Part shown: one piece after another, positions 11,613-38,584 of the stretch
Numbering within the stretch: the first letter of the stretch is position 1
Layout of the letters: each line of letters starts with the position of its first letter
Source: SAR202 cluster bacterium
GTDB lineage: Bacteria; Chloroflexota; Dehalococcoidia; Lucifugimonadales; UBA6952
Assembly: GCA_009392515.1 (NCBI GenBank)
Contig: VFGE01000018.1
Coordinates: 1 to 39,331, forward strand
Direction: 5' to 3'
DNA: 39,331 bases
Notes under the pieces: generated by a model
Databases searched by the model: none
Told to the model about the DNA's origin: nothing
What the model saw: only the letters and a program-made list of their open reading frames with translations
Program-made: the position numbers and the translations under genes

Positions 11613-12248
11613 TTATTGTACTGCTCGTTCAATAAATCCATCAATTAATGCCCGTACTATAGAAGGACCGTCAATAAATGGATTAAATTGGTAACCTAAA
11701 ACCCAATCGTGTAAAGTACTTTCAATTCCATGGACATAACCAGTACCTAATTCGTAAACAGAAGTAATTAAATCTTTAGATCGTTGGAATTCTTTCATCG
11801 ACTGAGGTAGTGAATTAGGTATTTTAAAAAACCCACCAGAACCAATTATTGCAGCAGTTTTTGATCCTGGAGAAATAAATATATCTAATAAATCATCTGA
11901 AGTTTTAATTTCATCATAAATTTGTTTGGCATTTTTATTAAATAAATCATTTAAGAAATACATGCCTTGGCCAATAGCTAAAACTGGCCGGTTATTATTT
12001 AAAATAGTATTTAATTGAGACTGTAATTCTGTAAAGTGATAGGAGTTAGTGTATATGCAATTGTAATTATCTACTTTACTTGTATCATCGAGTAAAAGCA
12101 TTCCTGAGAAAACAGTTTCATTTTTTGATAGATTTTGAGAAATAGAATCATTAGTGATTATTGTCAGGTCAATAGTTTCAGAAACTTTTTCTAAATATTT
12201 TGGTGTTTCAGAATCTGAAACACCAAAAACCAACACATTTTTTTTCAT
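11613..12248 (-). CDS. Class I glutamine amidotransferase-like (peptidase C26-like) protein lacking the catalytic triad
   Basis: The 211 residues have the layout of a gamma-glutamyl hydrolase/PuuD-like glutamine amidotransferase fold. The nucleophile elbow reads PVLAIGQGMYFLND (88-101), where the family has GxCxG, so Gln94 (codon CAA) replaces the catalytic Cys. The family's final QFHPE block appears as GYQFNPF (185-191): Asn189 replaces His and Phe191 replaces Glu. The preceding VHGIESTLHDWVLG and following IVRALIDGFIERA match the family ending. All three triad positions are changed, so amidotransferase or hydrolase activity is not expected. A binding or regulatory role is possible; function is unknown. 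TAAGGT upstream is the likely ribosome site. It lies 20 bases after the selenoprotein gene. Confidence 0.72.
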   Translation of the reverse strand: MKKNVLVFGVSDSETPKYLEKVSETIDLTIITNDSISQNLSKNETVFSGMLLLDDTSKVDNYNCIYTNSYHFTELQSQLNTILNNNRPVLAIGQGMYFLNDLFNKNAKQIYDEIKTSDDLLDIFISPGSKTAAIIGSGGFFKIPNSLPQSMKEFQRSKDLITSVYELGTGYVHGIESTLHDWVLGYQFNPFIDGPSIVRALIDGFIERAVQ

Positions 12249-12268
12249 ATATTAATTACCTTAGATAT

Positions 12269-12544
12269 TTAGACTTCAAATAATTTTTCGATTACAAGCA
12301 TCTGCAATTCTTTGATTTTATTATAATCAGGCATAGCTTTTTCATCCTTACAATCATAAACTTTTTCTTTTTGTATATACACTTCAAGCCGACCTTTATC
12401 CGCAGGTGTTATTGTGATTGCTATATCACCAGGGTTATGACTAGATAAAAACTCTGCAGCCATCCACGTGGCTACTGGGAAGTACCCTCAACTAACACAA
12501 TATATAATTTCAACATCTATTTTCCCGAATTCAGAATTAGCCAT
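12269..12544 (-). CDS. SelW-like (Rdx family) selenoprotein with in-frame TGA as selenocysteine
   Basis: Reading from ATG 12544 to the stop at 12269 gives 91 residues if the TGA at 12490-12488 is decoded as selenocysteine (U19). The segment VEIIYCVSUGYFPVATWM has the SelW/SelT/SelH (Rdx) CxxU redox motif, Cys16 and Sec19, after the first beta strand. The remainder, ITITPADKGRLEVYIQKEK, matches the family's second half, where a beta hairpin carries the exported loop. Without recoding only a 64-codon fragment from Met28 is visible, lacking strand 1 and the redox motif. AAAGGAG at 12550-12556 stands 5 bases before the ATG. A SECIS-like hairpin follows the TGA. Family members are thioredoxin-fold thiol redox proteins of uncertain substrate. 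The selenocysteine itself is an inference from frame, motif and hairpin. Confidence 0.88.
12456..12475 (-). promoter_or_regulatory. Candidate bacterial SECIS hairpin
   Basis: On the minus strand, nucleotides 13-32 after the TGA form a 7-bp stem (GUAGCCA with UGGCUGC, one G-U pair) closed by the 6-nt loop CGUGGA. The apical loop begins 19 nt after the UGA, and its second base is G, followed by U. This fits the published description of bacterial SECIS elements: short apical loop, 16-37 nt from UGA, a G among the first two loop bases. Pairing was done by eye. Confidence 0.65.
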
Positions 12545-12558
12545 ATTATCTCCTTTGT

Positions 12559-12972
12559 TTATTCAAAATTTCCAGCGTCAGCATCCCCACCAAACGGATT
12601 TAGATCCCACAAATCATATTTTACACCTATCTCAGGTAAAACATGCATAGAAGATGGTTCATTAATACTTCTAATATAATGCCAACTTTCAAGTGATTGA
12701 AATGACACTCCGCAATAAAAACAACATAATCGTTTTGCAGTATCTTTCATCAATTCAATATATTGTTCATATTGCATTTCTGCATATATATTACTTATAC
12801 TTTTTATCTTCATAAACCTATCATTATCAAATGGAATTAATTTTTTCCTAATTGATTCATCTGAAAGGTACGGCAAAGTAATTTCCTCAATGTTTTTACC
12901 CTCAGTTAATTTATCCGGTAGATTTATTGGAGATGCATAGTTGCAACTCATACACCATAACCATAATTCCAT
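12559..12972 (-). CDS. Hypothetical protein with paired CxxC motifs (possible zinc ribbon)
   Basis: I do not recognise this 137-residue protein. It has two cysteine pairs 73 residues apart, Cys7/Cys10 (WCMSCNY) and Cys84/Cys87 (CCFYCGV, with an extra Cys83). This is the spacing expected of a split zinc ribbon or a redox-active pair of knuckles. The N-terminal tryptophans and an SLESWHYIRS segment look structural, and there is no signal peptide or membrane segment. It ends 14 bases before the selenoprotein start and begins 20 bases after the glycosyltransferase, so it is co-transcribed with both. Proximity to a SelW-like redox protein suggests, but does not show, a thiol or metal-related partner role. 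Confidence 0.75.
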   Translation of the reverse strand: MELWLWCMSCNYASPINLPDKLTEGKNIEEITLPYLSDESIRKKLIPFDNDRFMKIKSISNIYAEMQYEQYIELMKDTAKRLCCFYCGVSFQSLESWHYIRSINEPSSMHVLPEIGVKYDLWDLNPFGGDADAGNFE

Positions 12973-22835: not shown

Positions 22836-24043
22836 TGAAAATTATGAAGAATTTTTTAGATGGTATTAGGGTTTTAGATTTCACACAGTACATTTCTGGC
22901 CCTTATTGCACAAAATTATTTGCAACATTAGGGGCAGAAGTTTTAAAAATAGAAAAACCAAGAACTGGAGACCCTCTAAGGCATCAACCTCCATTTGCAA
23001 ATAATATTAACTCACCCGAAACAGGTGCTTGGTTTTTGTATCTAAATACTTCTAAAAAAAGTATTTGCATAGATTTAAAAACTACTGAAGGAAGAGATAC
23101 TATTCTTAAGTTAATTCCGAATATCGATTTAATTATTGAAAATTTTTCCCCGGGCACTATGAACAAACTTGGGCTTGATTATAAAACCATGTCAGCAATC
23201 AACCCTGCAATAGTAATGACATCTATTTCAAATTATGGACAAAATGGACCTTATAGTGATTGGAAAGCAACTGAGCTTAATTTGTATGCTTCAGGTGGAC
23301 TGATGAAGATAACAGGAGAGCCAGATAATTACCCATTAAAAGAAGGAGCTCCATTAGCTCAACTAGGTTGTGGACAAAATGCCTTTGTAGCAAGTCTAGG
23401 AGCAACGATGCTAGCCGAAGACACGGGTATTGGTCAATATATTGATATCTCAATTGCAGAGTATGGAACTAATGTTATGGAAAATGCTTTTATGCAATAC
23501 AGTTATTCAGGGGTAGAATATACAAGAGTAGGCAATAGGGGATACGGAAGAGCTGCATGGGGTATTTATCCTTGTGCAGACGGTTTTGTAGGAATTATTT
23601 CAGGTCCTGATCATCGCTGGTCTGAATTTGCTTCTATTATGGGAAGAGAAGAATTATCAGATCCCAAATATGGAACAAGAAGTGGACGACTAGAATATGC
23701 AGACGAAATTGATGCTTTAATGCTACCCTGGTTAATCGAAAACAAAAAAGAAGATATATTTAAAGCAGGACAGGAACACGGCCTAGGATTTGCATACGTT
23801 TCAACGATTAGCGACATTCTCGAAATGGAACAACTTATTGATAGAAGTTACTTTATTGAAATCGAGCATCCTATAGCTGGCACTTTATTGTATCCAGGTA
23901 TGCCGATAAAAACTGACCTAGACAAATGGGTATACTCTAGATCACCTCTTTTAGGAGAAGACACGAAACCTACATTGAGCAAATATACACCAATGACAGA
24001 ACAATCAATAGAAGAAGGGATAACCAAAGGGTATCTTCAATGA
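22835..24043 (+). CDS. CaiB/BaiF family III CoA-transferase-like subunit, catalytic Asp replaced
   Basis: The 402-residue protein has LDGIRVLDFTQYISGPYCTK, LGAEVLKIEKPRTGDPLR, IVMTSISNYGQNGPYSDW and the PLLGEDTKPTL ending of family III enzymes. At the expected Asp it reads APLAQLGCGQNAF, with Gln176-Leu177 instead of Asp. The downstream neighbour, which overlaps by 4 bases, retains an Asp there, so the two probably work as a pair. The start is GTG 22835, overlapping the dehydrogenase stop as TAGTG; ATG 22844, three codons in, is an alternative. Neither has a strong ribosome site, consistent with translational coupling. Confidence 0.88.
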   Translation: MKIMKNFLDGIRVLDFTQYISGPYCTKLFATLGAEVLKIEKPRTGDPLRHQPPFANNINSPETGAWFLYLNTSKKSICIDLKTTEGRDTILKLIPNIDLIIENFSPGTMNKLGLDYKTMSAINPAIVMTSISNYGQNGPYSDWKATELNLYASGGLMKITGEPDNYPLKEGAPLAQLGCGQNAFVASLGATMLAEDTGIGQYIDISIAEYGTNVMENAFMQYSYSGVEYTRVGNRGYGRAAWGIYPCADGFVGIISGPDHRWSEFASIMGREELSDPKYGTRSGRLEYADEIDALMLPWLIENKKEDIFKAGQEHGLGFAYVSTISDILEMEQLIDRSYFIEIEHPIAGTLLYPGMPIKTDLDKWVYSRSPLLGEDTKPTLSKYTPMTEQSIEEGITKGYLQ

Positions 24044-36672: not shown

Positions 36673-37212
36673 CTATAAATCAGATGCACTTAAAGCATTT
36701 TTATTTGATAAGGCAGTTATAATTTCATTAATTATAGAAAGTTTTTTCTCATCCTTTATATTAATTACTTTTGTATAATTGGCTGTATCCAATGGTGTCG
36801 TTCCATTTCCATCTACATAATTTATTTCTGCTCCAGAGTCAATTAATAAATCAACCATTTCTTTTTGAAGAAAAAATACTGCCCAATGTAATGGTGTAGC
36901 TTTATCTTTATTATTGGCTTCTAAGTTTATATCTGCACCATTAGAAAGTAGAAGATCTACAATTTCAACATTTCCTTTAACTACTGCCAGATGTAATGGA
37001 TGAGCACCTGCTAATGGTATTCCAACTGGAACAGGGTAATTATTTATATTTGTGCCCGTATCTATGTGTTGTTGTACAATTTCAATATTTTCTTTATCGA
37101 TTGCAGTCAATAAATCAATAGAAGGAGTTGAATTTTTAGTATTATCACTACAAGACAAAGTAACGATCATAATACTTGTAAGTAAAAACAAAGCTACGAG
37201 CCGATTGAACAT
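36673..37212 (-). CDS. Ankyrin-repeat lipoprotein
   Basis: The 179-residue protein starts with a type II signal peptide: Arg4, a hydrophobic core VALFLLTSIMIV, and TLSC with Cys21 as the lipidated residue. The lipobox is imperfect, with Thr rather than Leu at -3. Three to four ankyrin repeats follow (about 35-150), with HPLHLAVVKGNVEIVDLLLS and TPLHWAVFFLQKEMVDLLID as the clearest, then GTTPLDTANYT. Ankyrin repeats bind proteins, so an envelope-anchored adaptor is likely. ATG 37212 is chosen because AAGGAAG precedes it; a TTG at 37233 would overlap the aminotransferase stop and has no ribosome site. It is 13 bases downstream of the aminotransferase gene. Confidence 0.87.
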   Translation of the reverse strand: MFNRLVALFLLTSIMIVTLSCSDNTKNSTPSIDLLTAIDKENIEIVQQHIDTGTNINNYPVPVGIPLAGAHPLHLAVVKGNVEIVDLLLSNGADINLEANNKDKATPLHWAVFFLQKEMVDLLIDSGAEINYVDGNGTTPLDTANYTKVINIKDEKKLSIINEIITALSNKNALSASDL

Positions 37213-37225
37213 ATACTTCCTTATA

Positions 37226-38584
37226 CTAACCAAGTTGATTAGATAATTTACCTAAAATCAAATCCATTCTTCCGATAAATTCATCAATTTCATCACTAGT
37301 AATACACAATGGTGGCGACATAGGTATCACATCACCTACACGGCCTAAAAGTGCATGTTCTCTCATTAAAACCGCACCTTTCTTTGCTAGTTCATCTTCC
37401 TTGGAAAATTTTTCTTTTGTTGATCTATCCTTTACCAATTCAATAGCGCAAAGGAGTCCAAGACCACCACGAATATCTCCTACAATTTCATGTTTTCTAA
37501 GAGTTTGTAGTTTTTCGTACAGATAATCCCCCATAACACGAGAGTTTTCAACCATTCCTTCATTGATCATAATATCTAAATTTGTAATGGCTGCAGCACA
37601 TGCAACAGGATTTCCCCCAAATGTAATAAGGCTTCTGAAAGTTTTATCATCATCCCCGATAAAAGCATCTGCTACTTTTTTTGAAGCGATTGTTGCACCA
37701 ATAGGTATATATCCGCTAGTCAAACCCTTCGCAACAGTCATAATATCTGGCGTTATACCCCAATGCTCAACAGCAAACATTTTGCCAGTTCTTCCAAATC
37801 CAGTTATCACTTCATCACAAATCAACAAAACTCCATATTTATCACATATTTCACGTACTAAAGGCCAATATCTAGGATCGGGAATGTGAATTCCGTTAGC
37901 AGCTGAAATTGGCTCTCCTATAACAGCAGCTACAGACTCAGGTCCTTCGTGCAATATTGCGCGCTCAATGTCATATGCACATTCTATTGGATCCTGATAT
38001 ATATCACGATAATTATCAACATTAGAAACATGGATATTACCTGGCATCAAGGGACCATAATCACCTGGAGCACCAACTCCTCCTCCTCCAAGACTTATGC
38101 ATGCATGAGTAGCTCCGTGATACGAGCCTCTTCGGCTAATTACTTTCCAACGTGATTGTCCGTTGTTACTATGATATTTTTTTGCCATTTTCAAAGCTGT
38201 TTCAACCGCCTCTGAGCCACCACTGACAAAATAAATACGGCTTTCTTTATCTGGTGTCAAAGACGCTAATTTACCCGATAATTCAACAGTAGCCGGGCTA
38301 ACTGTACCACCTGGTGAATAGGAAACTTGTGTCATTTGTTTATAAACAGCTTCTGCTATTTCATTTCGACCATGGCCTATATTTTTTAACCACATACCAG
38401 CTATGGTATCAAACCATTTTACCCCTTTTAAATCTTCGACCCAGACACCACTGGCTTCTCCAACGAGGGTAATACCAGTGTCATCAGAAAGATCTCCCGC
38501 TTGTCTGGAGTGGGGCCAAAAATGAGCTGATGCAATATCTTTTAAATTTTCTAAATCTTCCCCAGTTCTTGTATCTAGAGCCAT
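37226..38584 (-). CDS. Class III (omega-type) aminotransferase
   Basis: PLP-dependent fold-type I aminotransferase, 452 residues. YFVSGGSEAVETALK (118-132) binds the cofactor phosphate, RGSYHGATHAC stacks on the ring, Asp257 in LICDEVITGFGRTG contacts the pyridine nitrogen, and Lys286 in MTVAKGLTSGY forms the Schiff base. The N terminus (HFWPHSRQ) and the length resemble omega-amino acid:pyruvate or taurine/adenosylmethionine-like transaminases. The amino donor is not determinable. It is the first gene of a two-gene unit with the ankyrin lipoprotein, divergent from mutS. Confidence 0.93.
   Translation of the reverse strand: MALDTRTGEDLENLKDIASAHFWPHSRQAGDLSDDTGITLVGEASGVWVEDLKGVKWFDTIAGMWLKNIGHGRNEIAEAVYKQMTQVSYSPGGTVSPATVELSGKLASLTPDKESRIYFVSGGSEAVETALKMAKKYHSNNGQSRWKVISRRGSYHGATHACISLGGGGVGAPGDYGPLMPGNIHVSNVDNYRDIYQDPIECAYDIERAILHEGPESVAAVIGEPISAANGIHIPDPRYWPLVREICDKYGVLLICDEVITGFGRTGKMFAVEHWGITPDIMTVAKGLTSGYIPIGATIASKKVADAFIGDDDKTFRSLITFGGNPVACAAAITNLDIMINEGMVENSRVMGDYLYEKLQTLRKHEIVGDIRGGLGLLCAIELVKDRSTKEKFSKEDELAKKGAVLMREHALLGRVGDVIPMSPPLCITSDEIDEFIGRMDLILGKLSNQLG

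Follow-up and report, generated by a model that had tools for sequence, protein, structure and literature searches.

A selenoprotein W-like gene with an in-frame TGA and a downstream SECIS-type hairpin in the SAR202 cluster

Background

The DNA examined here (hereafter the window, 39,331 nucleotides) is a contig (C18) of a 1.55 Mb, 98.45% complete genome of a SAR202 cluster bacterium (Chloroflexota, Dehalococcoidia). Between two genes of its minus strand lies a gap of 310 nt (12249-12558), which is otherwise empty and which is filled by a frame containing a single internal TGA. Is this TGA a stop, a defect, or a codon for selenocysteine (Sec)? An earlier note, made from the letters of the window, favoured the last answer: the frame would encode a small protein of the Rdx/SelW type, with the TGA at the position where the family carries its Cys or Sec, and a SAR202-like host would then possess a selenocysteine machinery. 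It also stated that marine metagenomes are known to contain SelW-like selenoproteins, and the literature bears this out. The Sargasso Sea study of 2005 reported 48 SelW-like sequences (PMC1088965), and the GOS study of 2008 counted 427 Sec versus 56 Cys sequences of the SelW-like type (PMC2398784); it is the most abundant selenoprotein family of the sea. Chloroflexi are mentioned in neither paper.

Results

The features of the locus, all on the minus strand, are as follows.

12272..12544, minus strand: predicted selW-like selenoprotein gene, 91 codons, ATG at 12544-12542, stop TAA at 12271-12269
12488..12490, minus strand: in-frame TGA, predicted Sec codon 19 of the CxxU motif; Cys at this position in homologues
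12499-12497, minus strand: TGT codon of Cys16 of the CxxU motif
12550..12556, minus strand: Shine-Dalgarno-like AAAGGAG, 5 nt upstream of the selW ATG, read from the sequence
12456..12475, minus strand: bSECIS-type hairpin GTAGCCA-CGTGGA-TGGCTGC, 7 bp stem and 6 nt loop, from folding and covariation
12559..12972, minus strand: 137-aa gene of no assigned family upstream of selW, with 14 nt between its stop and the ATG of selW
11613..12248, minus strand: 211-aa gene of no assigned family downstream of selW

The frame of 91 codons, its single TGA, and the ATG with AAAGGAG upstream are present exactly as the earlier note had described them. With the TGA read as U, the product is MANSEFGKIDVEIIYCVSUGYFPVATWMAAEFLSSHNPGDIAITITPADKGRLEVYIQKEKVYDCKDEKAMPDYNKIKELQMLVIEKLFEV. 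This read-through protein matches the Pfam Rdx family (PF10262) with 53.8 bits (cut-off 22.6) over residues 11-80, TGA included, and profile positions 2-71 of 74. It also matches TIGR02174 (CXXU_selWTH) with 35.5 bits (cut-off 34.2), again with the TGA within the matched stretch. The score against the narrower family NF041051 is 45.5, under its cut-off of 88. Since the PF10262 and TIGR02174 matches exceed their cut-offs, the frame is not a chance one, and the assignment to the Rdx/SelW type with the motif C16-V-S-U19 stands. A phmmer search of the PDB with the same protein returned SelW-related or SelT/SelW/SelH-type proteins, and the printed alignments of 2p0g and 3dex place a Cys exactly opposite the TGA. 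Given this homology to proteins of solved structure, the product may have a thioredoxin-like fold. Cys homologues in SAR202 and elsewhere likewise have their Cys aligned exactly with position 19, and the motif is invariant in our family alignment A3 (Sec read as C). The TGA therefore occupies the Cys/Sec position of the family, as had been proposed.

The 137-aa and 211-aa genes flanking selW in the window are not beside selW in the relatives read, and the idea of conserved operon partners was rejected on this ground. An Rfam scan of the window gave no matches. No convincing candidate for another hidden TGA gene was seen in the window with a filter that was crude and missed selW itself, and no viral contigs appeared in the homologue scan. 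Elsewhere in the window (36673-37233), an ankyrin-repeat protein of 186 aa (Ank_2, 5.6e-31) adjoins a class III aminotransferase.

A selW homologue was found in 192 of 250 genomes of the host's order. Among the approximately 150 selW matches listed, nearly all have exactly one in-frame TGA; three genomes (G049, G052, G244) have no internal stop and one match has an extra TAG. About 70 of these loci were read. The last codon of the CxxX motif in these loci is TGA, except for TGC in three loci (L065, L066, L067), which come from exactly the three genomes listed without an internal stop. Two of the loci (L057, L089) were set aside from this tally: the script had caught an unrelated upstream motif, and their frames visibly contain CVPU. 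Most selW starts in the order are preceded by Shine-Dalgarno-like purine tracts. Degraded upstream frames in close homologues sharing the stop had been named as a finding that would speak against a selenoprotein; the close homologues share the same TGA, and their upstream frames are intact and conserved, with no decay. The only congener in the genome set (G226) has no selW match and keeps the Sec machinery. Our first impression of a selW loss in this genome was dropped: gyrA, which lies in the same segment of the window, has no match there either, so the assembly probably lacks the segment and the absence of selW is uninformative.

The host genome contains all the components needed for reading the TGA as Sec. 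SelA (515 bits), SelD (354 bits) and SelB (338 bits) score above their curated cut-offs, and a tRNA-Sec (61.2 bits) scores above the Rfam cut-off and is also called by ARAGORN as tRNA-SeC with a TCA anticodon. The machinery predicted for the lineage, the absence of which the earlier note had named as a refutation, is thus present, and tRNA-Sec and SelB are above cut-offs in all of ten further genomes of the order, from seven genera. On contig C35 (locus L001, 1152-1598), the tRNA-Sec gene lies 25 nt downstream of a same-strand thioredoxin gene (107 aa, WCGPC). The host selD itself (contig C37; locus L014, 1480-2533) has an in-frame TGA within MSHCAGUAAK, which makes it a second selenoprotein of the genome; this site is the known Cys/Sec catalytic position of the enzyme. 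In both TGA genes read in the host genome, selW and selD, the TGA thus falls at a known Cys/Sec redox position. Contamination of the assembled genome by the window contig was considered and rejected: its GC content (33.9%, versus 34.2% in other loci of the host genome) and its tetranucleotide profile (r = 0.92 against the rest of the genome) agree with the other host contigs, so that it is not an obvious contaminant.

The 31 genes tallied in the window end with TAA in 22 cases, TAG in eight and TGA in one, making TGA the rarest stop of the window, albeit on small numbers. The one TGA-terminated gene is the CaiB gene, with its stop at 24041-24043, the very gene that the earlier note had cited for TGA as a true stop. 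UGA is therefore not globally reassigned.

A hairpin follows the TGA. Its loop, CGUGGA, has G as the second and U as the third nucleotide and lies 19 nt downstream of the UGA, and the predicted folding energy is -9.1 kcal/mol. In every criterion (spacing, loop with G, stem, folding energy) it agrees with the model of bacterial SECIS elements given in PMC13188914. The 36 nt downstream of the TGA have 61% GC in a window of 34% GC; only 0.1% of in-frame stretches attain as much. The GC3 of the window is 20%, yet this stretch uses synonymous codons that are rare in the window, among them GGG, TAC, TTC, GCC and ACG, with synonymous fractions of 0.13, 0.22, 0.16, 0.10 and 0.06, respectively. When codons were resampled with the protein kept, p for the fold ranged from 0.0018 over 36 nt to 0.03 over 48 nt. 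Single-sequence folds of longer stretches (61-65 nt) are no better than shuffles, and most relatives, taken one by one, have modest codon-preserving scores (median p 0.19). The signal is thus a local one that shows in the comparison of sequences.

The comparative part of this signal comes from wobble sites. Within the subgroup of the window gene, all 31 distinct sequences have a standard pair between alignment columns 18 and 33, both third codon positions, and five pair types occur. The other subgroup (A2) has a register-shifted stem, in which 19 of 20 sequences preserve the third-position pair 21/33, with four types. Sliding the partner column abolishes the signal in both subgroups. In 79 Cys homologues, these positions pair about as often as expected by chance (34-47% observed versus 39-41% expected). 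Stems are longer in TGA genes than in Cys homologues (Mann-Whitney p 1e-13, or 3e-7 when the Cys genes are restricted to those of SAR202). Shuffles leave the relatedness among the sequences in place. Hairpins reaching -7.5 kcal/mol occur in 59% of TGA genes, 5% of Cys homologues and 1% of background stretches in a simple, bulge-free scan, which leaves about 40% of TGA loci short of this value. Two stem registers thus occur in the sister selW groups A1 and A2, and the Trp codon UGG of the loop is fixed throughout.

The guess of a SAR202-like host also proved right. One genome of the host's order (G108) gave the same matches, at the same positions, as CP046147.1, the record of Candidatus Lucifugimonas marina JH1073, of which the NCBI lineage is SAR202 cluster. 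The host and a cultured SAR202 bacterium thus share one order. JH1073 has SelA and tRNA-Sec, together with a tandem selW pair in which a Cys copy is directly followed by a TGA copy (1276405 and 1276752; locus L193 1151-1761). The Sec copy starts with MADVPAKVHAEIEYCVPUSYHS.

When position 19 was masked and 114 proteins were placed in a maximum-likelihood tree, only three Sec/Cys changes were required, versus 35.7 expected for shuffled labels. The contig scan behind the sample evidently used a pattern with Cys codons, favouring Cys homologues, and to that extent the proportion of Sec to Cys proteins in the tree is biased. Rooted at its midpoint, the tree suggests that Sec was ancestral and was converted to Cys three times, a direction that we infer from a short alignment with unbalanced sampling and a root placed for drawing only.

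Discussion

The window almost certainly carries a functional gene for a SelW-like (Rdx) selenoprotein of a low-GC SAR202 bacterium, in which TGA is read as Sec. The frame, the family, the conserved TGA, the Cys at the same site, the Sec machinery, and a covarying hairpin restricted to the TGA genes are all observed. From the established biochemistry of the E. coli Sec pathway and of the Rdx family, the steps of its expression and action may be proposed by analogy. SelB-GTP with Sec-tRNA(Sec) would be held at the hairpin just 3' of UGA19; the ribosome arriving at UGA19 would then insert selenocysteine rather than terminate, and translation would continue. The product would be a small thiol/selenol redox protein, with C16-x-x-U19 after strand 1 at the active-site position of the Cys/Sec homologues, and the C16/U19 pair presumably cycles between a selenenylsulfide and the thiol/selenol form. 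The function of SelW-like proteins was called unclear in PMC1088965, where an interaction with glutathione was reported.

One might suppose instead that the TGA is a nonsense mutation or a base error in a former Cys gene. A single genome alone would be insufficient to exclude this. The TGA, however, is shared by almost every homologue listed from the 192 genomes, with both flanking frames intact, Shine-Dalgarno-like sequences at most starts and residues conserved, and the covarying hairpin is found in TGA genes only. Because the same TGA is seen in dozens of independent assemblies, a sequencing error is excluded in practice, and a pseudogene or error is rejected as having virtually no chance of being correct. 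Nor do we see any realistic prospect for the TGA being a real stop, so that either a peptide of 18 residues or a downstream product lacking its start would be made. That TGA terminates the gene at 24041-24043 agrees with such a reading inasmuch as it argues against global reassignment, but a true stop would mean that the motif-bearing start of the family is lost in nearly every genome of the order, yet both parts are conserved at the protein level, and sister lineages have Cys in place of the TGA.

It is also very improbable that a variant tRNA or a general reassignment makes UGA a codon for Cys, Trp or some other standard residue. Reassignments of UGA do exist in other bacteria. Against one here stand the full Sec system of the genome, the TGA ending a normal gene of the window, the known Cys/Sec redox positions at which TGA sits in both genes read, and the position-specific hairpin downstream of the TGA. 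On the strength of the Sec machinery and the stop of the CaiB gene, global reassignment is rejected, in agreement with the earlier note, which had judged it unlikely.

Returning to the selenoprotein reading, we consider it more likely than not that SAR202 is an order-wide Sec-using ocean lineage and one unassigned source of the SelW-like selenoproteins that dominate marine metagenomes, and that Sec was ancestral in SelW, with some lineages duplicating the gene and converting one copy to Cys, as in Ca. L. marina. If so, the function of the SelW family and the reason for Sec retention become testable. JH1073, a cultured strain in which a Cys and a Sec copy lie side by side, is a direct test system. 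The window gene assigns a known marine selenoprotein family to an abundant, barely cultured ocean lineage and shows that the Sec trait is retained even in a small (1.55 Mb) genome of 34% GC. Such genes are easily truncated or skipped where TGA is taken as a stop. Covariation at wobble sites, with Cys homologues as the negative control, offers a clean route for confirming bacterial SECIS elements.

The paper on SAR202 cultivation (PMC10444878) does not mention selenium, and a sponge study (PMC5649159) reported that symbiont bins from several phyla carry SelA and SelB. In the open-access literature, no paper turned up in which SAR202 and selenoprotein occur together, and those joining SAR202 and selenocysteine were not about SAR202 selenoproteins, which is weak evidence of novelty given the restriction to open access.

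How does the window gene compare with known systems? Animal selenoprotein W is also a member of the Rdx family with a CxxU motif, and eukaryotic SECIS elements lie in the 3' UTR. The eukaryotic SECIS is, moreover, of another type, with quartet and AA features (PMC1088965). The Cys-containing Rdx/SelW-related structures 2p0g, 3dex, 2obk and 2fa8 are homologous in sequence over approximately residues 7-80, but they have Cys for Sec, are 103-107 aa long and are distant (E-values 1e-5 to 6e-4). The tandem pair of JH1073 (CP046147.1) shares the order, the family, and the TGA at the same motif of its second copy; it differs in the adjacent Cys copy and in a Sec copy that shares about 34% identity with the window protein and falls on another branch of the tree. 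The SelW-like sequences of the Sargasso Sea and GOS metagenomes are alike in CxxU, in a bacterial SECIS-type hairpin with a loop G, in their small Rdx/SelW-type product and in their marine origin. Those are reads without a stated SAR202 host, whereas the window gene stands in a genome with the machinery and belongs to an order-wide set. As a protein family, SelW is thus well known already; what looks new is that it can be assigned to SAR202 across the order, together with the evidence from covariation.
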